Shown here one piece after another: positions 3,155 through 17,468 of a stretch of 42,944 nt of DNA (positions are counted from its first letter, which is position 1; every line of letters begins with the position of its first letter). The position numbers and the translations under genes are program-made. Location of the stretch: the NCBI GenBank assembly GCA_013816135.1, contig JACDEV010000006.1:1-42944 (forward strand), in the 5' to 3' direction. Source of the DNA: Patescibacteria group bacterium. GTDB lineage: Bacteria; Patescibacteriota; Minisyncoccia; Phycocordibacterales; DATDWN01. Below the pieces are notes generated by a model that ran no database searches, was not told the DNA's origin, and was given only the letters and a program-made list of their open reading frames with translations.

Positions 3155-4041
3155 ATAAAAGAACAGAATTTAAGTAATAAAAAACATTCCTTCCCGTCAT
3201 CTATCAGGTAAGTCAGGCGAAGTCGCTATATAGCATGTTTTGTAAGTGAAAAACTTATGAGATGTTAGATAGGCCTTATGTTGACTTTCTTACCCATTTT
3301 ATGGAATACTGGCTAAGTGGAGCATTCTAAATTTTTCATGAACGCTTTTCGGAGAAATCTTGAAAATCGTCAAAAAAGTTAGAGTTATCCACACAGACAG
3401 ATTTGAAAGTCACAGTAGGAGAATATATAATACGTTTTATGCGCAGTGTTTATTACACTGTGCATAAATACATATATATTCCGCACTGGTCAGACAGGCA
3501 TGAACTTTGAAAAATACATCCGCACACTAACTCTAGCATTGTGTTTTTGTTGCCTTATTGAAGTGAAGTAGAAATATTAAATATCTCTACAACTTAATAA
3601 TGTAATAAAAGTTTATAAAACACGATGCAACGATGCTAGAGTTAGTGTGCGGATAAATATGGATTTTATTGAGAGGCACGATAATTTTCGTGTCTAAAAA
3701 TCTTAGAGCTTTTTTAAAGGCTTTGAGACTTCCGAATATCTGTCATTTCTACCAATCAGCTACACTAGAAATTCAGTCCAACACAACCATCTATTTTTTC
3801 ATCTTGCGTCGAGTTTGTCCGAGTTTCATCGGCTTCACCATCATATGAAGATGTGATGAAATTTTTACAAAATGCTTGAGGTGAAAAAATTAGTATGCAG
3901 ATGTAAGTGTTTAGAAAATAGAAATATTTTTTAAATTCATGCATCAGAATATTATTAAGTTTTAGTTATTAATGTTTCCGAATGGTAACTTCCTATAAAA
4001 TTTTTAATAGTAAATATAGGAAAACCGTTTTATTAAAATAT
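3155..4041. other. Non-coding region upstream of the major surface-protein gene
   Basis: About 890 bases with no convincing gene on either strand. It holds one perfect DnaA-box-like 9-mer (TTATCCACA at 3385-3393), the palindromic element at 3518-3654, and a weak hairpin near 3838-3862. A TATTAT box at 3950-3955 could serve the downstream gene, but I cannot assign a -35. No tRNA, tmRNA, RNase P or SRP RNA signature was recognised. Confidence 0.5.
3518..3654. repeat. 137-bp palindromic element, copy A
   Basis: Begins ATCCGCACACTAACTCTAGC and ends with its reverse complement: the terminal inverted repeats are perfect over 22 bp (3518-3539 with 3633-3654). The interior is AT-rich. A second copy lies at 12587-12725 with about the same length and conserved arms. 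One arm base pair differs between copies on both sides (T-A here, C-G there), so the pairing is preserved. Both copies are preceded by TTTGAAAAATA. It may be a MITE-like element or a transcribed structured RNA; no transposase gene is in the window. Confidence 0.7.
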
Positions 4042-7000
4042 ATGAGTTTAACAAAATCACGACTCGCAAAGGTCTCTGCCGGAGTTGTAGGATTCGCAAT
4101 GGCGCTTTCATTTGTAGTGGCTCCGGTCACAGCAAGTGCAGCGACAGTAGCTGAACTACAGGCACAGATTGCTGCATTGTCTGCACAGCTTGCATCATTG
4201 AGCAGCACAACGACAACAACAACATCAACAGGTTATACATTTAATGTAAACCTTACAGTAGGAAGTACTGGTGCTGATGTTATGAATCTACAAAAGGTTC
4301 TTAACAGAAGTGCTGATACTCGAGTTGCAGTTTCAGGTGTTGGTTCAGCAGGTATGGAATCTTCATACTTTGGTGCACTAACAAAGGCAGCTGTAATGAA
4401 ATTCCAAGCAAAATATGGAATTTCTCCAGTTGCTGGATATGTAGGTCCGATCACTCGAGCGAAACTTAACTCGATGAACGTATCTTCATCATCATCAACT
4501 ACTACAACTACAACAACAACAGGAACTTTCCCAGCAGGATGTTCATCATCAACTGGATACAGTTCAACAACAGGTCAGTCTTGTGCAACTACAACTACTA
4601 CTCCAGTTGGAGGATCGTTGTCAGTTTCAGCAGGAACACAGCCTACAAATTCTCTCGCACCTCAGAACGCAGCTAGAATTCCTTTCACAACAGTTGTCCT
4701 CACAGCAGGAGCAACTGATGTGACAGTGAACTCAGTTACAGTTGAGCGAGTTGGTCTTGCACAGGACGCAGTCTTGTCAGGAGTTGTTCTTCTAAACAGC
4801 GACGGTATGCAGATCGGTATTGCAAAGACACTTAACTCAAACCATCAAGCAGTTGTTGGTGAGCCTTGGGTGATCAAAGCAGGTACTTCTCAGACAGTCA
4901 CTATCGCCGGAAACATGGCAGCTTCCCTTTCAGCTTATGCTGGACAGGTTGTTGGTCTAAATGTTGTCGGAGTTAACACAACAGCTTCAATCAGTGGATC
5001 ATTCCCAATCATGGGTGCACAGCACACAGTGAATGCTTCACTTGCACTTGGTACTGTTACACTTGCAACTTCTTCATTTGATCCTCAGTCAGCTCAGACA
5101 AAGGAAATTGGTACTTCAAACTACAAATTTGCCGGAGTTCGAGTTACAGCAGGTTCAGCTGAACAGGTTAAATTATGGTCAGTTCGATTCAATCAGTCAG
5201 GTTCAGCATCATCTAACGACCTTGCTAACGTAGTGGTCGTTGTTGATGGAGTATCTTATCCAACAGTAGTTTCTGCTGATGGTAAGTATTACTCAGCTGT
5301 ATTCTCAGGTGGTCTACTTATCGACAAAGGTCTTTCAAAGGATGTTTACATCAAGGGAGACATTGTAGGAACAAGTGCTGCAGGACGAACAATTCAGTTT
5401 GACTTGTACAAGAACACAGATCTATATTTGTCAGGTGTGACTTATGGATATGGAATAATCGGTACAAATCCTAACGGAGGATCAGCAGTTGTAGCTACTA
5501 CAGCTTCTGAGTTCGTTGGAACAGCCGCAGCTCCAGGTTCACCATTCTTCAGCGGTTCAGTAGTTACAGTATCTGCAGGTTCAGTTACATCAATTCAGAA
5601 AGCAACTTCTGTTGCTGCTCAGAACATCGCTGTAAACGTTCCTAATCAGGTTCTCGGAGGATTCGTTACAGATATCAAGGGTGAACCTATCACAGTACAG
5701 TCAATGGCATTTACTATCGCTACGACTGGAACAGTAGGTCCTATCACTAGTATCACAATTGTCGATCAGAACGGTGCAGTAGTTGCAGGTCCAGTGGACG
5801 AAGCATCTACATGTACAACTGGTTGTACAGTTACTTTCACTGATTCAGTTACATTCCCAGTAGGACAGAGAACTTACACCATAAAAGGTAAGATCCCATC
5901 TGGAGCTTCTAATGGAGCAACAGTTATCGTTTCAGCTAACCCTTCAACAGGTTGGACAAACGTAACTGGTCAGACAACTGGAAACTCTATCAGCTTGGCA
6001 GGTAGCGGTTCATTCGCAATGAACACAATGACAGTTAAGGCAGCTTCTCTAGCAGTTAGCGTTTCAGCTACACCTTCAGCTCAGTCAATCGTGGCTGGTG
6101 CACAGGCTGTTCTACTCGCAAACTACCAGTTCGATGCTTCACAGTCAGGTGAGGATGTAAGATTCTCATCACTTCAAGTAACAAACACTGGTTCAAACTC
6201 AACAGGTTTGACATCATGTCAGTTGTTCGATGGTGCAACAGCTTTGAACACAGGTTCAAACGTTGTTACAACTCTTGCAGGATCTGCAACATTTACTTTT
6301 GATCAGCAGCTTGTTGTTCCAAAGGGAACAGTAAAGACTCTTGCTCTAAAGTGTAATGTTTCTTCTTCAGCAACTGGTACATTTATCTTAGGTATCACTG
6401 GAACTCAGGTCACAGCTATGACAGTAACAGGTGTATCTTCATCTGGAACTGTAGTAGCAACTGGTGCAACAGCAACTGGTCAGACAATGACAGTTGGAAC
6501 TGGAGCTCTAGTAGTATCTACAGATTCATCTAGCCCTTCATACACTGTTGTGGCAGGTGGTTCTACAGGTAACGTAGCAGGAGCTTACAAGTTCCGAGCT
6601 TCAAACGAAGCAGTTAACCTAAACCGAGTTTCTTTGAAACTTACTTCAGGTGCAGCATCAGATGTTGTTCAGGTTACTATTTGGGATGGTGGTACACAGG
6701 TTGGTACAGCAGTATTTACTGGTAACAGTCTATACGCTACATCAACATTCTCATCTTCAGTAGTTCTTCCAAAGGATACAGACAAGGTATTGACAGTTAA
6801 GGTCGACTTAGCTGCTATAGGTACTTCACAGCCAGGAACAGAGGGATCACTTGTAAAGGTTGATTTCAATGGTTCTGACTCAACAGGTACTCAGGGAACA
6901 GGTGCTGGTTCTGGAAACACAATCAACGCAACAGGTTCTACAGCAGTAGCTGGTGTAAGAATGTTTAAATCATTCCCTACACTTGCTCTTGATACTCTAG

Positions 7001-7545
7001 GTTCAACAGGACTTGCAGATGGTAAACTTATGAGATTTAAGGTTACAGCAAATGCAAACGGTTCAGTTGGAGTTTCACAGTTCAAGTTTACAGTTTCTAC
7101 AACTACAGCAGTTGTAACAAACATCGGTCTTTACGCTTATACTGACGCTGCCTACGCTAGTGCAATATCTGGCCAGGGTACAAGCGGACAAATCGGTTCA
7201 AACGTAACGACTGCAACTAACGGAACAGCATTCGCTATCTCACCATCAACTAACCCAGTACAGGTTTCTGCTGGACAAACACTATACTTCGAGCTACGAG
7301 CTTCAGTATCTGGTGTTACAACAGGAGCATCTGTGGTTACAACACTCTTGGGTGACTCAGCTTATTTGACAAACTTGACAGCAGGTTACAATGTCGCAAC
7401 TTCATCAGCTGCTACATCAACAAGTAACTTCGTATGGTCAGGAAACGCGACATCTACAGCTGGTCTGTTCGATGTTGATTGGTCAAACGGTTACGGTCTA
7501 CCAGGTCTATCAGCTTCTGGTCTTATCCAGACTCGATCTAACTAA
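4042..7545 (+). CDS. Large secreted surface protein with peptidoglycan-binding domain (S-layer-like)
   Basis: 1167 aa from the ATG at 4042. That start places a clean signal peptide at residues 1-33 (cleavage after ASA); an upstream in-frame ATG at 3982 would add 20 residues before it. After a short coiled coil (36-53) and Thr-rich linker, residues ~70-146 form a PG_binding_1-type domain (VGSTGADVMNLQKVLN ... YFGALTKAAVMKFQAKYGI ... GYVGPITRAKLNSM). A second Thr/Ser linker follows, then about 1000 residues of low-Cys, Val/Thr/Ser/Gly-rich beta repeats. No C-terminal anchor is obvious. Arginine is written mostly as CGA, and the gene ends at a very strong terminator; both fit a highly expressed structural protein. 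The peptidoglycan domain probably ties it to the wall and the beta modules form the surface coat. This role is inferred by analogy with other Parcubacteria surface proteins. Confidence 0.8.
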   Translation: MSLTKSRLAKVSAGVVGFAMALSFVVAPVTASAATVAELQAQIAALSAQLASLSSTTTTTTSTGYTFNVNLTVGSTGADVMNLQKVLNRSADTRVAVSGVGSAGMESSYFGALTKAAVMKFQAKYGISPVAGYVGPITRAKLNSMNVSSSSSTTTTTTTTGTFPAGCSSSTGYSSTTGQSCATTTTTPVGGSLSVSAGTQPTNSLAPQNAARIPFTTVVLTAGATDVTVNSVTVERVGLAQDAVLSGVVLLNSDGMQIGIAKTLNSNHQAVVGEPWVIKAGTSQTVTIAGNMAASLSAYAGQVVGLNVVGVNTTASISGSFPIMGAQHTVNASLALGTVTLATSSFDPQSAQTKEIGTSNYKFAGVRVTAGSAEQVKLWSVRFNQSGSASSNDLANVVVVVDGVSYPTVVSADGKYYSAVFSGGLLIDKGLSKDVYIKGDIVGTSAAGRTIQFDLYKNTDLYLSGVTYGYGIIGTNPNGGSAVVATTASEFVGTAAAPGSPFFSGSVVTVSAGSVTSIQKATSVAAQNIAVNVPNQVLGGFVTDIKGEPITVQSMAFTIATTGTVGPITSITIVDQNGAVVAGPVDEASTCTTGCTVTFTDSVTFPVGQRTYTIKGKIPSGASNGATVIVSANPSTGWTNVTGQTTGNSISLAGSGSFAMNTMTVKAASLAVSVSATPSAQSIVAGAQAVLLANYQFDASQSGEDVRFSSLQVTNTGSNSTGLTSCQLFDGATALNTGSNVVTTLAGSATFTFDQQLVVPKGTVKTLALKCNVSSSATGTFILGITGTQVTAMTVTGVSSSGTVVATGATATGQTMTVGTGALVVSTDSSSPSYTVVAGGSTGNVAGAYKFRASNEAVNLNRVSLKLTSGAASDVVQVTIWDGGTQVGTAVFTGNSLYATSTFSSSVVLPKDTDKVLTVKVDLAAIGTSQPGTEGSLVKVDFNGSDSTGTQGTGAGSGNTINATGSTAVAGVRMFKSFPTLALDTLGSTGLADGKLMRFKVTANANGSVGVSQFKFTVSTTTAVVTNIGLYAYTDAAYASAISGQGTSGQIGSNVTTATNGTAFAISPSTNPVQVSAGQTLYFELRASVSGVTTGASVVTTLLGDSAYLTNLTAGYNVATSSAATSTSNFVWSGNATSTAGLFDVDWSNGYGLPGLSASGLIQTRSN

Positions 7546-7584
7546 TACTTAGTTCAAGTTCTAGATAAAGCTTAGGCTTTTAAC

Positions 7585-7622
7585 AAAAAACCACCATTCC
7601 TTAAGGGAATGAGTGGTTTTTT
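7585..7622 (+). terminator. Strong Rho-independent terminator after the surface-protein gene
   Basis: A 16-bp stem (AAAAAACCAC plus CATTCC, pairing with GGAATG and GTGGTTTTTT) around the loop TTAA, with one bulge, ending in a T run. Confidence 0.9.
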
Positions 7623-7660
7623 GTTGCATGAAATTAGAGTTTTGAGGAGTGGGGGGTTTG

Positions 7661-7669
7661 TGTTAAAAT
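7661..7669 (+). promoter_or_regulatory. Extended -10 promoter, leaderless start
   Basis: TGTTAAAAT (TG plus TAAAAT at 7664-7669) ends seven bases before the ATG at 7677, so transcription should begin at or beside the start codon. Confidence 0.45.
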
Positions 7670-7676
7670 GTGTTTT

Positions 7677-8408
7677 ATGCCAATTTCAAAAACAAACAAG
7701 ATAATAATGAGTGTAGTTGCTATTTTGGTTTTACTTGCAATATATATTGTAATAGACAGAAGAAATAAATCTGAAGTACCAACAGATATTTCCCCAACTG
7801 CGACAACTACTGGAACAAATTCAGTAACCTCTACAACCACGACTTCTTCTGGACAGAAAATTGTTACAACAAGTAACGGAACTTACACCATAAAAGAAGT
7901 ATCACTTAATGAAGGAAAGACTTTTCCTCAACCAATTCCAGACTTGAACCGTCCTGTGAAAGTTTCTACTTCTGTTGCAGTTTCACCTGAAGCCTTTGCA
8001 GTTGCTTCCAAAAAAATTCCTGAAATACAAGCACTGTTAAAAACAAATCTAGGTGATTGGAAAAATTGGATTGAGTTAGGACTCTATCAGAAGATGGCAG
8101 GAGACTATCTCGGAGCTGTTATCTCTTGGAAGTATGCTTTGAGATTAGCACCAACTGATTTCGTTGCTCCTGGGGATTTGGCAGACTTATATGCTTATTA
8201 CCTAAAAGATAATGTTCAAGCCGAATATTATTACAAAATCGCAATTGCAAATGGTACCTCTAAAACAGCATATTTATATATCCAATATGCAACCTACTAT
8301 AGAGATATTATAAAAGACATTGCAAAAGCAAGAGCAATAATTGATCAAGGACTAATAAAAATTCCAAATAATCCCGCTCTTCTAGAATTCAAAGCAAGTT
8401 TGCAATAA
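7677..8408 (+). CDS. Membrane-anchored TPR protein
   Basis: 243 aa from ATG 7677 (an in-frame ATG at 7668 would add three residues, but lies at the -10 box). One membrane segment near the N-terminus (IIMSVVAILVLLAIYIVI) is followed by a Thr/Ser-rich extracytoplasmic linker. The C-terminal half has two to three tetratricopeptide-like helical hairpins (NWIELGLYQKMAGDYLGAVI, then ALRLAPTDFVAPGDLADLYA, and ARAIIDQGLIKIPNNPALLE). TPR domains bind other proteins, so a scaffold or assembly role at the cell surface is likely, with partner unknown. It stands between two terminators and is probably monocistronic. Confidence 0.75.
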   Translation: MPISKTNKIIMSVVAILVLLAIYIVIDRRNKSEVPTDISPTATTTGTNSVTSTTTTSSGQKIVTTSNGTYTIKEVSLNEGKTFPQPIPDLNRPVKVSTSVAVSPEAFAVASKKIPEIQALLKTNLGDWKNWIELGLYQKMAGDYLGAVISWKYALRLAPTDFVAPGDLADLYAYYLKDNVQAEYYYKIAIANGTSKTAYLYIQYATYYRDIIKDIAKARAIIDQGLIKIPNNPALLEFKASLQ

Positions 8409-8420
8409 GGACAAATAAAA

Positions 8421-8449
8421 AATAACCGACACGATGTCGGTTATTTTTT
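8421..8449 (+). terminator. Rho-independent terminator
   Basis: Stem AATAACCGAC / GTCGGTTATT with a short loop, followed by a T run. Directly after it lies TTATCCACA at 8456-8464, a DnaA-box-like 9-mer. Confidence 0.88.
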
Positions 8450-8493
8450 ATTGAGTTATCCACAGCTAATAATGACTTAAATTTGTAGGTACT

Positions 8494-8499
8494 TATACT
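8494..8499 (+). promoter_or_regulatory. -10 box, leaderless start of the 8508 gene
   Basis: TATACT ends eight bases before the ATG at 8508. No Shine-Dalgarno precedes the start codon. Confidence 0.45.
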
Positions 8500-8507
8500 T
8501 AATATAC

Positions 8508-9107
8508 ATGAGCTTTAAAAAAATATTAAAAAGTGTTTTGCTAGTTGTCGTAGTTTTGTATGTCGGAGTGGTTATTTATAGAATGTTTTATTTCCACAAT
8601 TTAAAAAGTACTCAAGCGGTGGTAGAGAATATTCATTCAACTCATATAACATTAGATGATGTAATGGGGAAGAATTTACCACCTGAACCTGGAATTGAAG
8701 CAGATAAAACTATTGTAGGAATAGATGCAAATCACAATGGGATACGTGATGATGTTGAGCTAGCAATATTTAAGGAGTATCCTACATCTGCAAAAAAACG
8801 AGCAGTTTCTCTACAATATGCCCAAGCTCTACAGATGGAATTTACCCAGTCTTATACAAATACAGATATCGTTATTGCTGTAGCTCAGGAAGGAGACAGG
8901 GCTTCGTTGTGTACTACGGAAGTATTTTCAAGAAGTGATCAAGAAAAATTCTTCAAAGAAAATGATGAATTAGTTGCCTTTGTGGAAAAACAACATATCA
9001 ATACCACAAATAGAAAGTCTTCACAACAAGAGTTTTATAAAAAAATTGGTAGTTATAATTCACTAGAAAGACACTGTGATATTGATTATTCAAAGTTGCC
9101 TAACTAA
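8508..9107 (+). CDS. Membrane-anchored protein with a DxNxNGxxDD calcium-binding-like loop
   Basis: 199 aa. One N-terminal membrane span (about residues 9-28), then an extracytoplasmic domain. The segment DANHNGIRDDVE (about residues 73-84) has the D-x-N-x-N-G-x-x-D-D-x-E pattern of dockerin, thrombospondin type 3 and EF-hand loops, so calcium binding is plausible. Two cysteines (about 128 and 190) could form a disulfide. The stop codon abuts the ATG of the next gene with no spacing, so the two are almost certainly cotranscribed and may act together. I do not recognise the rest of the protein. Confidence 0.72.
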   Translation: MSFKKILKSVLLVVVVLYVGVVIYRMFYFHNLKSTQAVVENIHSTHITLDDVMGKNLPPEPGIEADKTIVGIDANHNGIRDDVELAIFKEYPTSAKKRAVSLQYAQALQMEFTQSYTNTDIVIAVAQEGDRASLCTTEVFSRSDQEKFFKENDELVAFVEKQHINTTNRKSSQQEFYKKIGSYNSLERHCDIDYSKLPN

Positions 9108-12100
9108 ATGAAAAATCATGGTTTCAGAGAATTCAAAGTTTTATCACTAATAATATTTTTATTATTTCCCTTTTTTACAAGTGCTACGACTAAATGTTTT
9201 TCAGATGGTTACACAGTTTTGACTTTAAACGGAGTGTTTACAAATGAAGAACAAGCAAAAGAAAACAAAAGAACGTTAGAAAGAAAATTATTACCTACTT
9301 TTGAGGGGCAACTTGTGACTGTGGATTTTCTTCACAACCCCTCTCACCTTGCAGGTTTGTCAGATATTGCTGTCGCAGCTTATCAAGGAATATTTGATAA
9401 CGAAACAGTTCAGGATTATGACCTGACTCAAATCCTTTCTGATGCAAGTCAGAAGATAACAACTCAAAAAGTTCTCATTGTCGCCCATTCACAGGGCAAT
9501 TTTTATGCCAATAGTTTTTATGATGTTGTAGCTGGTAATTCAGGTGGAATACCAAAGGAGTCTTTGGGAGTTTATGCAGTCGCTACTCCTTCAGGAAGAA
9601 CACCTGGAAACGGATTATGGTTAACATCAACATCAGACAAAATAATTGCAGGCTTAGTTGGTGGAACTTTATCACGAAAGATAATGACTCCAAACGTCAC
9701 AATACCATTAACACAAGATGACGATGAGAACGGGCATAATTTTTCTTCAGTTTATTTAAAGTATCAGTCAGTGCGGATTATTTCTGATATTGATAAATCA
9801 TTGGAACTTTTGAAAAATAATTCGATACAAAGTGAAAATAAACCATGTATGAATCCACCAAAGATTACTTTTGTTCATAAAACTGTTGGTGTTGTTTATG
9901 CTGTGGCAGACCCAGCAGCAAATATAAGTAATACCGCGTTATCGACAGTATATGAGGTAAGTAATATAGCATTAACTTCTGGAGCAAAAGCGTTGGCAGT
10001 AGGTATTCAAACTAGTTATGAAGGACTTTCATATTTTGTAAAAACTATAGAAAATACTGGTAAGTTGGCATTTCACTCTGGAAAAAACCTTGCAAGTATA
10101 GAAAGTATTGATTCTGATACAGAACCAGAAAAGGACACTAATATAATTAAAGTTGCTGATGCACAAGAACATGCTGTCAACGATCAAGGTAAAAAATCTG
10201 TAATAATAAAAAAACAAAAAGATTTACCTATTAAAGAAGAGAGTAAAGAGCAGGTAAGTGAGCAATCAAAAAAAGAAGAAAAAAATGATGTACTAATTGA
10301 AGAAGTAAAAGAAAAATTAGTATTAGAAGTTGAAGCAGATTCTAAGTTAGAAGAATCAAAAATAAATAATGGACGGGAATACTCTCCAGGGTTCGGTGGT
10401 GGAAATCCTACTACTGTAACTCCTGTTGTCGTTCCCGACACCACCGCTCCGACTATTTCTATCACTGGTTCAAACCCAAAATATATATTGATTAACTCTG
10501 CTTATACTGATTCAGGAGCCACAGCTTCTGATAACATCGATGGAACAGTTTCTGTAACTTCCACAAGCACAGTAAATACTTCTATTTTGGGAAATTATTC
10601 AGTTACATATAGTGCAAAAGATGTAGCAGGGAACACATCTACTTCTTCAAGAGCAGTAAATGTTGTTTCCAATATTTATATCCCTGAGAAAAAGTTTGGT
10701 TTGGATAGTCTTAATCAGGATTGGCAGGTGTGGGTATTCAATGGATCAAATGTCTATGACTGGTCAGATACATACGTGAATAATTTTTTAAGAGAACAGT
10801 ACAAAATTCAAGCTTTATCTGGTGCATTTTGCTCACAATGTTTACAACGAGGAATATTTCTTCGTGACCCACAGACAGGTTTTGAGACCACTGATCTTTC
10901 AAAATCTAGTTTAGAATCTAATCCTCAAAACAGCATGAACAACACTATTTATAATGTTGTTTTGCAGTGGGATGCCTTGGGTTATACATACACTATCTCA
11001 CATGGAACAACTACAGATTCTACTGGACATACAAACATTTCAAATGTTGGAGAAAACATGTGGGTAGGTTGGGATGGTTCATACAACAACTTCCAAACTT
11101 TCCCATCTGGAGATTGGCAAGGAACTGTCAGCTCATCTCCTCTTTCTCGAACTGGAGGAGGAAGCATGATTACCCAACCTTATTCTGTAAAAAAAGTTAC
11201 AACTGAACCTACAACCTCTTCACTTACACTCCCAACTACAGGGGAACTTGCCGAGACAGGAATAAGCCCAAGGCGTGGTAGAGAAAATCTAACTGCATTT
11301 GAATTCAATATTACTTACAAAAATCCATCCAATCTCACTCCTCAGAATGTGACTTTGCATGTAAAGAACTCGTTAAATCTAGAGTCTACAATTCTAATGC
11401 AAAAGGCAACAAACAACGGAAATACTCTTAGCGACGATAGTTTTGTGAACGGCGAAACTTATCTTGCAACAAGCACTTATTCTTCTGGAGATTATACTTA
11501 TTATTTTACTTCTAAAGATTCTGACGGTAACACCATCCGAACTCCATCCACTGGTTCTTTGAGGTTTACAGTTATTGCTTCTACATACACCTATAGTTCA
11601 AAATATACATTTGGTACAGACAATGGGGATGGTAATGACTGGCAAGCTTGGTCATTTAATGGGTCATATATTTACAACTGGTCTGACACCTATGTTTCAG
11701 GATATTTATTAGAACAATTTAAAATTCGATCCTTTGCAGGTTCTTCTTGTTCGTCATGTTTGCAAAGAGGAATTTTCAATCATGATCCTAAAAAAGGATT
11801 TGAAACAAGTGATAGGAGTGTGTCTGTTTTGGAAGGCAATCCGCAAAATAGTTCAACTAATACTATATATGACGTAAGTATTCAATGGGATTCAACGGGC
11901 TATACTTATACTGTTTCTCATGGAGCCACCACTGACTCCACAGGACATACAAATATAGCAAATGTTGGAAGTGACTTGTGGGTAGGTTGGGACGCATCAT
12001 TTAATAACTTCCAAACTTTCCCATCTGGAGATTCATATGGAACAGTGCCCGGTTCTACATCATTAACAGGTGGAAGTAATATGATGATAAAACCATATGC

Positions 12101-12113
12101 TGTTTTTAACTGA
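9108..12113 (+). CDS. Secreted alpha/beta-hydrolase (lipase-like) with Ig-like domain and duplicated C-terminal domain
   Basis: 1001 aa. Signal peptide at about 1-27. Residues ~30-240 resemble an alpha/beta-hydrolase: the nucleophile elbow VAHSQGNFYAN carries Ser128 (H-S-Q-G), and Asp177 and His210 (DDDENGHNFSS) are candidates for the other catalytic residues. A Glu/Lys-rich linker (~355-430) precedes an Ig-like domain of DUF5011 type (~445-522: PTISITGSNPKYILINSAYT, GNYSVTYSAKDVAGN). Then come two copies of a ~170-residue domain, at about 525-695 and 825-1001, each with a CxxC pair (CSQC, CSSC), LQRGIF, NFQTFPSGD and TTDSTGHTNI. The copies are clearly homologous and flank a beta-rich segment; they could be carbohydrate- or surface-binding modules, though I do not know the family. 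Coupled to the gene at 8508. Likely a secreted enzyme acting on lipids or esters of neighbouring or host cells. Confidence 0.75.
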   Translation: MKNHGFREFKVLSLIIFLLFPFFTSATTKCFSDGYTVLTLNGVFTNEEQAKENKRTLERKLLPTFEGQLVTVDFLHNPSHLAGLSDIAVAAYQGIFDNETVQDYDLTQILSDASQKITTQKVLIVAHSQGNFYANSFYDVVAGNSGGIPKESLGVYAVATPSGRTPGNGLWLTSTSDKIIAGLVGGTLSRKIMTPNVTIPLTQDDDENGHNFSSVYLKYQSVRIISDIDKSLELLKNNSIQSENKPCMNPPKITFVHKTVGVVYAVADPAANISNTALSTVYEVSNIALTSGAKALAVGIQTSYEGLSYFVKTIENTGKLAFHSGKNLASIESIDSDTEPEKDTNIIKVADAQEHAVNDQGKKSVIIKKQKDLPIKEESKEQVSEQSKKEEKNDVLIEEVKEKLVLEVEADSKLEESKINNGREYSPGFGGGNPTTVTPVVVPDTTAPTISITGSNPKYILINSAYTDSGATASDNIDGTVSVTSTSTVNTSILGNYSVTYSAKDVAGNTSTSSRAVNVVSNIYIPEKKFGLDSLNQDWQVWVFNGSNVYDWSDTYVNNFLREQYKIQALSGAFCSQCLQRGIFLRDPQTGFETTDLSKSSLESNPQNSMNNTIYNVVLQWDALGYTYTISHGTTTDSTGHTNISNVGENMWVGWDGSYNNFQTFPSGDWQGTVSSSPLSRTGGGSMITQPYSVKKVTTEPTTSSLTLPTTGELAETGISPRRGRENLTAFEFNITYKNPSNLTPQNVTLHVKNSLNLESTILMQKATNNGNTLSDDSFVNGETYLATSTYSSGDYTYYFTSKDSDGNTIRTPSTGSLRFTVIASTYTYSSKYTFGTDNGDGNDWQAWSFNGSYIYNWSDTYVSGYLLEQFKIRSFAGSSCSSCLQRGIFNHDPKKGFETSDRSVSVLEGNPQNSSTNTIYDVSIQWDSTGYTYTVSHGATTDSTGHTNIANVGSDLWVGWDASFNNFQTFPSGDSYGTVPGSTSLTGGSNMMIKPYAVFN

Positions 12114-12141
12114 AATCAGCCAACATTATCTTTTCGCTAGA

Positions 12142-12342
12142 GTAAAATCATGGGTTTTTAAGACTTGCGCAGGGAATTAGAAAACAACGACGCAGATGAA
12201 GTAAGTCCGGAGCACTGTTTGAGCACAGGTATTCCTGGCGAGTTTGCGGAGGACACGAATCAAGGAGATTATTTTCTTGATTTGCGAGCACAGCAAAAGC
12301 CTACCAGGGCTTTATGCGTGTCTTAAAAACCCATTATTTTAC
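12142..12342. repeat. 201-bp element bounded by 23-bp inverted repeats
   Basis: 12142-12164 and 12320-12342 are reverse complements over 23 bases with one mismatch. The stem can extend inward with wobbles (TTGCG against TGCGT). The interior holds a second hairpin (AATCAAG / CTTGATT near 12261-12284) and is moderately GC-rich, with no open reading frame. It directly follows the lipase-like gene. It could be a structured RNA or a MITE-like element; I see only one copy in this window. Confidence 0.6.
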
Positions 12343-12379
12343 AGCCTTTTATCCCCAGTTTTCCCACAGTCCTTTTTAT

Positions 12380-12407
12380 TTGACAAAGAAGCCTATTAAT
12401 ATATACT
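12380..12407 (+). promoter_or_regulatory. Strong sigma70-type promoter upstream of the 23S region
   Basis: TTGACA at 12380-12385, 16-base spacer, TATACT at 12402-12407. It is the best promoter between the lipase-like gene and 23S rRNA. A terminator 77 bases downstream means it either makes a short RNA or that the terminator is bypassed. Confidence 0.6.
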
Positions 12408-12413
12408 GGTCTC

Positions 12414-12511
12414 TATTGCAGAATATGTTAAAAATTCACTTAAATTCTAAGCGGTAATGAGAACGCGTTATTACGCGTTTGATAAAAAACCGCTCCAGCT
12501 GGCGGTTTTTT
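12414..12511 (+). ncRNA. Candidate ~98-nt small RNA
   Basis: Bounded by a strong promoter (12380-12407) and a Rho-independent terminator (12484-12511), with no start codon that opens a useful frame. It contains an internal palindrome AACGCGTTATTACGCGTT. It could be an independent small RNA or an attenuated leader of the 23S transcript. I recognise no known RNA family. Confidence 0.42.
12484..12511 (+). terminator. Rho-independent terminator upstream of 23S
   Basis: AAAAAACCGC, loop TCCAGCT, GGCGGTTTTTT. The A/T flanks make it partly bidirectional. Confidence 0.8.
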
Positions 12512-12586
12512 AAATAAACAGCCGTGCTGCGTCCAAAGGACGGGAATTGATTGGATTCACTGACCGGCTAGTAATTTGAAAAATAA

Positions 12587-12725
12587 ATCCGCACACCAAC
12601 CCTAGCATTGTGTTTTTGTTGCGCTATTCAAATAAAATGGAAGTATAAAATATTTCTACGAGTTCGATTGGCGTAATGAAAGTTTATAAAACACGATGCA
12701 ACGATGCTAGAGTTGGTGTGCGGAT
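12587..12725. repeat. 139-bp palindromic element, copy B
   Basis: Second copy of the element at 3518-3654. Arms ATCCGCACACCAAC... and ...GTTGGTGTGCGGAT pair over 22 positions with one mismatch. The T-A to C-G change relative to copy A is compensated in both arms. The inner right part (GTTTATAAAACACGATGCAA) is identical in the two copies. It sits 150 bases before the 23S processing stem. Confidence 0.7.
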
Positions 12726-12874
12726 AAATCCCACCGCGACTTTTCTTCTGAGTCATATTGCTTTTGCAGTATGGCCGAGCGACTGTTTGTAGAGGTACAA
12801 ACGGACGTTAGAGGGTCTTTAGTTGCAGGTGGATGTAAAAAGTAAGTTAAGCAAACTGTTATATGAATTAATGT

Positions 12875-12893
12875 CATGTAACAGGATAAAGTA
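12875..12893 (+). other. 5' arm of the pre-23S processing stem
   Basis: 19 bases perfectly complementary to 17282-17300, beyond the other end of 23S. An inner complementarity (12942-12951 with 17264-17273) forms the terminal helix. This is the expected RNase III-type stalk for excising 23S and shows that both ends lie on one transcript. Confidence 0.8.
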
Positions 12894-13497
12894 AAAAGAT
12901 TTGAGGATATCAGTGGTGATGTTCTCAGATCTGTGGTTTTTAAATTTCCTAATGGGAAATTTAAGAGCGTATGGTGGATGCCTAGACTCAAAATGGCGAT
13001 GAAAGACGTAGCATGGCTGCGATAAGTTTCGGGGAGGTGCCTAGCAACCTTTGATCCGAAAATTTCTGAATGGGGAAACCTAATGACTATATGTCATTTC
13101 TTGGGAGTTTATCCCAAGAGCACACCCGGGGAAGTAAAACATTTCAGTACCTGGAGGAAAATAAAACAATGTTCGTAAGAACGATATTTCCTTAGTAGCG
13201 GCGAGCGAAAAGGAAAGAGCCCAAACCGAGTACCTTACTGAGGGAGGTTACAGGAAACTGTAACTAACTTCTGTTAGTTATTCGGGGTTGTAAGGCAGAA
13301 ACGTCGTAATTTATTATGAGAGAAGTTAAAAAATATTATGTTAGTTGAATGCTCTGGAAAGAGCGACCCTAGAGGGTAATAGTCCCGTAAGCGAAAATAT
13401 AATATCTTCTTTGTTTCTGTTCTTGAGTACCTCGAGACATGAATAGCTCGGGGGAATCTACCGGTACTAACCGGCAAGGCTAAATACATTTTGAGAT

Positions 13498-13534
<37 letters not shown>

Positions 13535-13591
13535 AAGTCCGATAAGGACAGTGAAATAGATCTGAAACCATATGCTTACAAGGAGTCGGAG

Positions 13592-13696
13592 CGGGTCGCA
13601 CATTGTGCGTATCTTTTGTCGTTTTTATGCTAGATATGATTCGCAAGACTTATATCTAGCATTGAGATTGCAAAAAATATGCATAGCGTGCGGTCC
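13592..13696 (+). other. Expanded helix 25 of 23S (IVS-like insertion)
   Basis: Where E. coli has a short hairpin loop, this rRNA has about 85 extra bases forming a long AT-rich hairpin: ATGCTAGATAT pairs with ATATCTAGCAT (11 bp), and an outer stem joins TGCGTATCTTTTG to CAAAAAATATGCA. Helix 25 is a known site of RNase III-removed intervening sequences in other bacteria. Whether this one is removed cannot be read from the DNA. Confidence 0.6.
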
Positions 13697-15057
13697 GTCA
13701 CGGCGTGCCTATTGAAGAATGAGCCAACGAGTTAATGTATGCGGTTCGACTAAGTCCTTTACCGGATGGAGTCATAGGGAAACCGAGTGTGAATAGCGCG
13801 ACTATATCGCATGCATTAGACCCGAAGCCAGAGCGAGCTTGCCATGAGCAGGTTGAACTTCTGAGAAATCAGAAGGGAGGACCGAACCGGTTGCCCGTGC
13901 GATTGCATCGGATGACTTGTGGTAAGAAGTGAAAAGCTAATCGAGCCTGGTAATAGCTGGTTCTCTCCGAAATAGCTTTTGGGCTAGCGTCGTATGTTTC
14001 TATGAGGGGTAGAGCACTGGAAGGTCTCGACAGGGAGCAATCTCGCGAGACCTATCAAACTCCGAATACTCATATTTAAAAGTACGGCAGTTAGACGGTG
14101 GGGGCTAAGCTCCATACGTCAAAAAGGAAACAGCCTAGATCTCTATTTAAGGTCCCTAAATCTACGTTAAGTGCGCTTAAGGTGGTGGAATTTCTCAGAC
14201 ACTGAGGAGGTTGGCTTAGAAGCAGCCATCCTTTAAAGATAGCGTAACAGCTCACTCAGTAAGAGATTCCGCGCCGCAAATAATCGGGGCTAAACGTAGT
14301 ACCGAAACTGAGGATTTAATTTTGCTTCGGCAAAATTGAGTGGTAGGAGAGTATTCGCATCTGCTGTGAAGGCGAAGGGGTGACCCACGCTGGAGCGTTG
14401 CGAAGTAAGAATGTTGGCACAAGTAACCACAATGCGGGTGAGATCCCCGCACGCCGAAAGACTAAGGTTTCCTGTTCAATGTCAATCAGAGCAGGGTTAG
14501 TCGGGCCTAAGGCAATGGAGAGATCCGCAGCCGATGGACACATGGTTAATATTCCATGACTTTTGCGTGATGCGATGGAAGGACGGAGTGTAGTATGTAT
14601 TGCTCATTATTGGATTTGAGTAAGGGCTATCAGGATATCTTCTAGGTAAATCCGGAAGAAATCACTTTAATGTGAACTATCCAAGTAGTTTTTAAACTTG
14701 GCGATTCGTCAAAGGGAATAATACAAAGCACGCTTCCAAGAAAATTTTCTAAGCATAATCACGTGAGATCCGTACCGTAAACCGACACAGGTAGTCAGCT
14801 CGAGAAGAGTAAGGCGAACGAGTGAGAGATCCCCAAGGAACTCGGCAAAAAAGCAGCCGTAACTTCGGAATAAGGCTTGCCCCAAACCCGCAAGGGTGAG
14901 GGGCCGCAGCTAAAGTATCTCTGGCAACTGTTTATCAAAAACACAGCTCCCTGCGAACTCGCAAGAGGATGTATAGGGGGTGATGCCTGACCAATGCCAG
15001 AAGGTCAAATATGGGAGCCGAGCGTCGCAAGATGTAAGGTTGATTATATAAGCCCTG

Positions 15058-15446
<389 letters not shown>

Positions 15447-15744
15447 GTGCACGAATGGTATAATGACTGGAGAACTGTCTCGGGGATTTGCTCGGTGAAA
15501 ATACAATACCGGTGAAGATGCCGGTTACCTGCAGTTAGACGAAAAGACCCCAGGAGCTTTACTGCAACTTGATATTGAGGGTATGTTTTGCATGCGTAGC
15601 ATAGTGGTGAGACTTTGAAGGACACTTTCGGGTAGTCTGGAGTCGTCAGTGAAATAGCCATCTTGTTTGATATACTTTCTAACCTGCTCGGCAAAAACGA
15701 GCAGAGACAGTTTCTGGTGGGCAGTTTTAGTGGGGCGCTATCCT

Positions 15745-16012
15745 CGAGGATGCAATTTTATTATTGTTTCCTCGATCCGTGGCGCCTCCTAGGTGGTTCA
15801 CACCAAAAAAAATAAATAAGGGGGACCATATTGTGAAAGCAGTATGAGAAAAGTTGGAAAATATCGGTGAAAATCTTAATTTTTAAAGATGACACCGAGG
15901 GAAGCTTGTGAATTTCACATACACCCGTAGAGACTACAAACCAACCATCTTAATTATTAGTTGAGATGAATGTATAGTCCGTCCTGCATAGTGATATGCA
16001 GTTAACATAGAG
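15745..16012 (+). ncRNA. Group I intron at 23S position 2262
   Basis: Removing 15745-16012 restores GGGGCGCTATCCTCCTAAAA, which matches the E. coli P-loop region base for base in length. The 5' exon then ends in U and the intron ends in G, as group I requires. Core: ATATCGGTGAA ... ACACCGAGGGAAG, CCGTAGAGACTA pairing with TGTATAGTCC (P7), and the terminal hairpin CTGCAT/ATGCAG (P9). No open reading frame. The internal guide is unclear: GGCGCC at 15781 could instead pair with GGGGCGCU at 15732-15739, which would move the 5' site to after 15739. Confidence 0.8.
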
Positions 16013-16346
16013 CCTAAAAAGTAACGGAGGAGTTTATTAAGGTCAGCTAGGCGCGAATGGAAACCGTGCCGATAGTGTAATGGCATAAGCTGGCTTAACT
16101 GTAAGACGTACTTGTCGAACAGATGCGAAAGCAGAACATAGTGAACCGACGGTCCGTTTTAGAGGCGGCCGGAGATTATCGGATAAAAGCTACCCTGGGG
16201 ATAACAGGCTGGTTGTGCCTAAGCGTCCATAGCGACGGCACAGTTCGGCACCTCGATGTCGGCTCAACTTATCCTGGGGGTGAAGAAGCTCCCAAGGGTA
16301 TGGCTGTTCGCCATTTAAAAAGTTACGCGAGCTGGGTTCAGACCGT

Positions 16347-16975
16347 GGAGAAGTTCAATTCCTTTTAGCTTGCTAAGAGTTTTGGACTGATCCACAATCT
16401 GAATCCTCAGAGGAATTTCGTTTTATGAATTAAATAAGAGATTAAGGAACCAATCAAATCACGGCGGTCTGACAATATTAAAATATTGCCAGATTAAAGT
16501 TGATTTATATCGGTGAAGCCCAAATGGTTGGGTAATACCGAGGGAAGTTTTTTGTTCAAATTGGAGGTTAGATATGAGAGTGGCACTAATAGTGGACTTG
16601 AATGAAAACAGAGGCAGTGGATATTTCAAATCCCTTGCTCGCGAGTTCGTAAATAGCAACACTTTAATTATAGACAAAGCAGAGATACGCGAGATTGCAG
16701 ATCAAGGAGATCTCGCTCGTGGGGATCGTACTGTCATGCTGCGTTTTAGCTCTAAGGCAACGCAGATTCTCTAAAATCCTAGGTGACGCGAATATACGCG
16801 CGTCACCACTTCCAATTTGAACGGAAAACGCCCGTAGAGACTAAACATCGACTATTGAATAGATACAAGAAACAAGATTAAAGATTCAAGAATTATTCCT
16901 GAATCTTGTGTCATGAATCCTGGATCAACTCAAAAAAGTTATAGTCCAATGCACAAAGTAATTTGTGGAAACATG
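16347..16975 (+). ncRNA. Group I intron at 23S position 2593, carrying a small ORF
   Basis: Precisely placed: 5' exon ...CAGACCGU, intron 16347-16975 ending in G, 3' exon CGTGAGACAGG. The guide GCGGTCTG at 16464-16471 pairs with the last eight exon bases, including the diagnostic terminal U-G wobble. The core (ATATCGGTGAAG, ATACCGAGGGAAG, CCCGTAGAGACTA, TTATAGTCC) resembles the position-2262 intron. A 12-bp stem (GTTCAAATTGGA / TCCAATTTGAAC) closes a large P6 loop holding the ORF at 16574-16774. Confidence 0.92.
16574..16774 (+). CDS. 66-aa protein encoded inside the 23S position-2593 intron
   Basis: Short ORF (MRVALIVDLNENRGSGYFKS...) with a strong Shine-Dalgarno (GGAGG seven bases upstream) and a normal stop. 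It lies entirely inside the loop of an extended P6 stem, the usual place for homing endonuclease genes. The protein is too short for LAGLIDADG, HNH or GIY-YIG enzymes and shows none of their motifs. Its predicted fold starts with a beta strand (VALIVDL) and has a long helical middle (AEIREIADQGDLARGDRTVM). It may be a remnant or a new type of intron passenger. That it is translated is inferred from the RBS and composition only. Confidence 0.5.
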   Translation: MRVALIVDLNENRGSGYFKSLAREFVNSNTLIIDKAEIREIADQGDLARGDRTVMLRFSSKATQIL

Positions 16976-17357: not shown

Positions 17358-17468
17358 AGTTTTGGTGCTTTATCGCAGAGGTCACACCCGTTCTCATTCC
17401 GAACACGGAAGTTAAGCTCTGTTGAGGCGATGGTACTTGAAAAGGGAGAGTAGCTAAGCGCCAGAACT
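17358..17468 (+). rRNA. rrf: 5S ribosomal RNA
   Basis: The terminal helix AGTTTTGGTGC pairs with GCGCCAGAACT over 11 bp. The conserved loop segments CACACCCGTTCTCATTCCGAAC and GAAGTTAAGC are present in the right order. About 111 bases, 85 bases after 23S. Confidence 0.95.

Follow-up and report, generated by a model that had tools for sequence, protein, structure and literature searches.

The window analysed here, a stretch of 42,944 nucleotides from a Patescibacteria genome of 789 kb (98.4% complete; G000 in what follows), contains two similar palindromic elements, and the question that they raise is what these elements are and by what means they could have reached their present sites. We consider it likely that they are MITE-like, non-autonomous elements bounded by terminal inverted repeats (TIRs), and that a minimal transposable element encoding a GIY-YIG nuclease mobilises them in trans.

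Copy A is a non-autonomous palindromic element of 137 bp (3518-3654) and copy B is one of 139 bp (12587-12725), neither with an assigned strand, and the bounds and lengths that a preliminary description of the window had given for both were exact. The 22-bp inverted repeats claimed at the same time are perfect in copy A (22/22), where the left TIR ATCCGCACACTAACTCTAGCAT (3518-3539, plus strand) faces the right TIR at 3633-3654 (minus strand), and are matched at 21/22 positions in copy B, where the left TIR is ATCCGCACACCAACCCTAGCAT (12587-12608, plus strand) and the right TIR lies at 12704-12725 (minus strand). An inverted repeat of this kind, a perfect 22 bp spanning 137 bp and encountered twice, is not chance. 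Compared over their full length the two copies are 85% identical. The compensated pair that had been pointed out is real, as position 11 of the TIR is T/A in copy A and C/G in copy B, and there is also an uncompensated change at position 15 of copy B (C in the left arm, T as read from the right arm), which had been missed. When folded with DNA parameters, the interior of copy A (3540-3632) is predicted to form an inner stem, GTGTTTT/AAAACAC, with a one-sided 7-nt bulge in the right arm and an AT-rich variable loop, and the interior of copy B (12609-12703) is predicted to form a bulge and an inner stem like those of copy A. In the register derived from 65 elements (see below), copy B is bordered by a 4-bp target-site duplication (TSD), TAAA, at 12584-12587 (plus strand) with a perfect right copy, TAAA, at 12725-12728, and copy A by a putative left TSD, TACA, at 3515-3518 (plus strand), whose right copy, TAAA at 3654-3657, matches at 3/4 positions.

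Both copies lie in DNA that is free of ORFs, at 3155-3981 for copy A and 12114-12950 for copy B, in agreement with the non-coding location assigned to them before, and the stretch around copy B precedes the 23S rRNA gene. The sequence TTTGAAAAATA, noted earlier as common to the DNA just upstream of both copies, is indeed present at each, and it is not simply element sequence, as it is kept at the copy A site of the congener G002 beside a different element of 71 bp. Large ORFs for surface proteins (3982-7545 and 9108-12113; peptidoglycan-binding, Ig-like) occupy the DNA between the two copies. On the plus strand at 12147-12344 there is a repeat of about 180-200 nt with a conserved core and a long, copy-specific, self-complementary closing stem (GGGTTTTTAAGAC...GTCTTAAAAACCC); it has 12 matches in G000 and many in the genus, corresponds to no Rfam family and resembles either a structured RNA present in many copies or an RNA-like mobile element. 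The 23S rRNA gene itself (12951-16424) contains two group I introns (15206-15418 and 15789-16001, plus strand), the 5S gene is found at 17361-17466, and the rRNA operon looks split because the 16S gene is absent from the window.

Whether copies exist beyond these two was a question raised in the preliminary description, and the genome has a further six elements with this TIR, which makes eight in G000 with copies A and B included. Of these six, four have no ORF (one is a mere 68 bp in length), and the remaining two, at C10:53890-54191 and C25:94761-95061, are 302 bp each and enclose between their TIRs a single complete ORF of 87-88 aa that encodes a GIY-YIG nuclease. Such full-length, nuclease-encoding members had no place in the earlier account. 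Both GIY-YIG elements in G000 share the sequence ATCCGCACACTAACTY with the window elements in their TIRs, and the 33 elements collected from G000, the genus and relatives fall into sharp size classes of 67-73 bp (11 elements), 133-141 bp (20) and 302 bp (2). All the paired TIRs detected in G000 have between them either nothing or GIY-YIG, and the genome yielded no larger unit bounded by TIRs. A single match at C16:42514 of G000 has no partner arm and therefore is not an element. The Y1_Tnp profile (PF01797) found no match in G000 and was positive in control genomes, in a search confined to the Y1 class of transposase.

The ORFs of the 302-bp elements match PF01541 with E values of about 3e-15 to 5e-15, and their predicted fold (AF2, mean pLDDT 92.5) is nearest to UPF0213, Slx1 and I-TevI. 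The nearest solved structures by both sequence and fold are UPF0213 (BH0048, EF2693) and Slx1, neither of which is known to be mobile. Full-length members are about 290-320 bp and their sole content is a stand-alone GIY-YIG endonuclease of 80-95 aa, with the start codon just inside the left TIR and the stop codon in or adjoining the right TIR. A scan of GTDB gave 80 named loci, mostly from Patescibacteria, and one viral contig brings the total to 81; in this panel, whose GTDB loci were selected by similarity to TIR-bearing queries and in which neighbouring elements are phylogenetically non-independent, TIRs scoring at least 12 surround 54/81 GIY-YIG ORFs versus 0.4% of random windows with the same geometry. 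Most of the TIR-flanked spans in the GTDB panel measure 276-325 bp, and the outer motif seen most often, CC[C/G]CACACYAA, is that of the window elements. In the panel of relatives about half of the GIY-YIG loci are bracketed by TIRs, one just ahead of the ATG and one at the stop codon, within one clade and with several TIR types. A detectable TIR is absent in 38 of 111 related GIY-YIG ORFs, and the most distant GIY-YIG clade of the panel has no TIRs.

The association between nuclease and ends is also visible in their histories, as TIR type tracks the nuclease tree with 26 changes versus 56.6 when shuffled (0/200 shuffles were as low), in a tree with many unresolved forks. The GIY-YIG ORFs are under purifying selection, with dN/dS of about 0.02-0.2 between TIR-flanked ORFs for pairs with measurable dS (for example 0.03/0.93, 0.08/0.54 and 0.16/1.47, the last of these being the two G000 copies), and the positions of the catalytic Tyr, Arg and Glu are invariant or nearly so. 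A viral origin was considered and rejected: the viral contig is distant and without a TIR, the one phage and three plasmid records are all distant, and there is no PHROG.

The compensated pair in the two window copies proves to be one case of a general pattern, in which the arms of 33 elements are kept complementary by compensatory change. Positions 7-10, 12 and 13 of the TIR are invariant among these elements, and positions 14-20 vary from element to element and mostly agree inside each one. Over positions 11-20 the two arms agree in 305/330 cases, versus 218 +/- 6.7 (maximum 248 in 10,000) in a permutation that deals right arms to other elements with relatedness uncorrected. Most of the 137-bp class have a recurrent fold, consisting of a 20-22-bp outer stem, a 5-9-nt one-sided bulge, a 7-8-bp inner stem and an AT-rich loop. 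It is the complementarity of the ends that is conserved rather than their sequence, and the data are compatible with both selection for the fold-back and correction between the arms. Since the fold-back is conserved through compensatory change in as many as 33 elements, the structure matters, yet its carrier is a mobile DNA element.

The ends also carry a signature of insertion. Direct repeats of 4 bp are perfect at 19/65 elements versus 6.1 expected (z = 6.8), a signal that is sharpest at length 4 and could be partly composition because its consensus, TNNA, partly lengthens the palindrome (TTTA...TAAA), and the permutation behind it controls pairing rather than composition, which it addresses only on average. 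The repeats are variable between loci. Anchoring at CC alone gave mixed registers, and anchoring TCC-type ends at the T gave one sharp 4-bp register. Individual TSDs are often imperfect, and individual cases are ambiguous given that TNNA lengthens the palindrome, so the support is statistical over the 65 elements.

Insertion targets include genes for structured RNAs. The GCCCCTCAC subtype of TIR corresponds to a nuclease clade and is located in tRNA genes at the boundary between acceptor and D-stem, where GGGCCGTTA adjoins GCCCCTCAC at one junction and GTGAGGGGC adjoins CGTTAGCTCA at the other, and the right TIR of this subtype restores the tRNA 5' end. Overall, 17/54 elements are in contact with an end of a tRNA gene, in almost every case the 5' end, versus 4.7% of random positions. 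Members of the family are found in 16S rRNA genes (L133, L149, L051 and the ORF-less L244) and at or in RNase P RNA (L156 and L245, Rfam matches below the gathering score), and no Rfam intron matched the window elements or the copies inserted in rRNA. A single conserved recognition site is seen in part in the tRNA subtype, and the dispersed intergenic copies with a TSD differ. In Zambryskibacteria RIFOXYD1_FULL_40_13 a tRNA-type element (L136, 2440-2960) lies inside a fragment of a broken tRNA, and about 110 nt downstream of it there is an intact tRNA gene.

Comparison of orthologous sites, in genomes that are MAG assemblies, adds a view of presence, absence and replacement. The interval between a terminator and the -10 region of secA, which has an element in G000, is empty in G003, G006, G007, G008 and G009, and in G002 it holds a palindrome of the CCCxGTAGT type, which is the TIR type of the GIY-YIG elements L053, L057 and L060. 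A GIY-YIG element of G000, located between the genes for a glycine-rich protein and a NUDIX protein, is absent in G006 and G007. The 71-bp element at the copy A site of G002 is of the same TIR family with another interior and has the same flanks (ACTTTGAAAA-TA / AAATATGGATT), and the copy B site upstream of the 23S gene is occupied in G002 by a ATCCCGTTAGA palindrome, the TIR type of the GIY-YIG element L062. As these G002 palindromes match the TIRs of GIY-YIG elements, three TIR types each pair a nuclease-bearing with a short form. Judged from these sequence comparisons the elements are mobile, orthologous sites being either empty or occupied by another element. The MITE-like reading offered in the preliminary description is upheld on several counts, namely multiple copies, TIRs, a significant 4-bp TSD, orthologous presence and absence, and, within the same genome, a relative that carries an ORF.

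We propose that the nuclease would be supplied by a full-length copy, such as the 302-bp element on C10 or that on C25 of G000, and that it would recognise the TIR core CC[C/G]CACACYAA, probably with both ends folded as a stem. GIY-YIG catalysis would cut the ends of the element and free or copy it, a 4-nt staggered cut would be made at a TNNA target, and filling of the gap by host repair would yield the 4-bp duplication, with ORF-less copies riding on the nuclease in trans. A folded TIR would be an apt substrate in this respect, given that Slx1 works on branched DNA, and a similar preference in the present nuclease would, by analogy, be in keeping with paired TIRs. We know of no strand-transfer activity in a stand-alone GIY-YIG nuclease, and host recombination or an unseen partner must therefore be invoked.

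More broadly, we lean toward regarding these as a new class of transposable element, comprising TIR elements of about 300 bp whose only transposase would be a GIY-YIG nuclease of 80-95 aa that works on the folded-back ends and gives a 4-bp TNNA duplication, with several co-existing TIR subfamilies that have their own MITEs, one of them specialised for tRNA genes and re-creating the tRNA 5' end. With such a class, the insertions in CPR rRNA genes that have lacked an explanation, both the GIY-YIG ones and the short ORF-less ones, would be accounted for. The known insertion sequences of bacteria use DDE, HUH, tyrosine or serine enzymes. To our knowledge GIY-YIG is not a recognised driver of bacterial transposons, and about 300 bp is smaller than any autonomous bacterial insertion sequence that we know of. 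If true, the proposal would bring in a catalytic type not known before, along with an autonomous mobile element of very small size.

Three other explanations bear on the same observations. The elements might be mobilised by another transposase in trans, of the IS200/REP-type Y1 or DDE kind, with the GIY-YIG gene as cargo or as a domesticated repair gene, and MITEs are commonly mobilised by an unlinked transposase; the hairpin ends are reminiscent of REP/IS200 systems. Yet a cargo gene would neither be the sole ORF in dozens of elements from many lineages nor track the TIR type, and neither a Y1_Tnp nor a larger TIR-bounded unit was found in the nearly complete G000 genome, which together make this explanation quite improbable. 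For IS200/REP systems in particular, which leave no TSD, the identity was rejected, given the missing Y1 transposase and the 4-bp TSD. Integron attC sites were also considered, and the arms, compared by eye with the motif RYYYAAC/GTTRRRY, are not a clean fit.

Target-driven homing without an intron is an alternative in which the GIY-YIG nuclease cuts conserved tRNA, rRNA or intergenic targets, homologous repair by the host copies the element in, and the palindrome comes along as a passenger and renders insertions into RNA genes harmless. The relation of the fold to I-TevI and Slx1 is in line with it, as are the identical position of tRNA-type elements within tRNA genes, with the 5' end restored, and the different elements held by the copy A site in two species, as expected for site reuse or replacement. 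We nevertheless think it unlikely, given that locus-variable 4-bp direct repeats are not a homing product, that the dispersed intergenic copies are non-allelic and have unrelated flanks, that TIR cores are invariant even in ORF-less copies, and that GIY-YIG insertions have been placed outside a homing context (Tsurumaki et al., 2024, PMC11270868). The structured RNA that the preliminary description had offered beside the MITE-like reading would be a multi-copy, immobile family of non-coding RNAs or regulatory hairpins (terminator, processing or attenuation), for which the strong conserved fold, the co-variation of the arms within elements and the intergenic positions near promoters could all be cited. 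As the primary identity of the elements it has very little to recommend it, as orthologous sites are polymorphic for presence and differ in interior even where occupied, insertions occur in 16S rRNA and RNase P RNA genes, the same ends enclose a nuclease ORF, and there is no Rfam family, the window elements giving no match above the gathering score and only sub-threshold scores to miRNA hairpins.

The preferred reading, MITE-like elements mobilised by a GIY-YIG nuclease, can be set against several known systems. Prokaryotic MITEs (REPIN/REP-RAYT and those of Coxiella and Acinetobacter) are likewise short, ORF-less, multi-copy intergenic TIR palindromes and non-autonomous kin of a coding element, but that coding element has a DDE or Y1 transposase whereas here it has a GIY-YIG nuclease. 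The Seg proteins of phage T4 and I-TevI have the nuclease fold in common with the present protein, their genes are not always intronic and they are inserted in conserved genes, but the 80-95-aa protein here has no separate DNA-binding domain. We know of no TIR/TSD architecture or MITE derivatives for T4 Seg or I-TevI. Group I introns with homing endonucleases likewise invade the rRNA of the same CPR organisms, but they are self-splicing RNAs without TIRs.

Insertions in CPR rRNA genes that have GIY-YIG ORFs and belong to neither the group I nor the group II introns have been described, together with many ORF-less insertions of <200 bp (Tsurumaki et al., 2024, PMC11270868), and neither inverted repeats nor tRNA came up when the text of that paper was searched. 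Those GIY-YIG insertions are very probably the same elements as ours, which probably explain a part of both the GIY-YIG and the short ORF-less insertions in rRNA; what distinguishes our account from that study is their assignment to a TIR family with ORF-less derivatives whose targets also include tRNA, RNase P RNA and intergenic sites. A concrete explanation is thus offered for insertions that fit neither introns nor homing. No prior description of GIY-YIG with TIRs, palindromes, REP or MITEs was found in the open-access literature searched, subscription papers and preprints aside. The streamlined genomes of Patescibacteria harbour MITE populations at promoters and in tRNA, rRNA and RNase P RNA genes.

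Some further loci among the relatives have related arrangements. L234, L236 and L237 (G061, G190) are perfect palindromes of 27-37 bp that consist of the TIR alone (CCCCACACCAA-N-TTGGTGTGGGG), resembling REP-like solo ends of the family. At L238 (G190:C2:1400-1750) a 117-bp CCCCACACCAA...TTGGTGTGGGG element at positions 111-228 surrounds a complete minus-strand tRNA gene, a possible case of tRNA capture by the element family. L075 (G015:C34) belongs to another GIY-YIG clade and has inverted copies of TCTGTCATTCCCGCGAAAGCGGGAATCCAG, a repeat that translates as SVIPAKAGIQ, on either side, which is possibly an analogous partnership between a GIY-YIG nuclease and a repeat.
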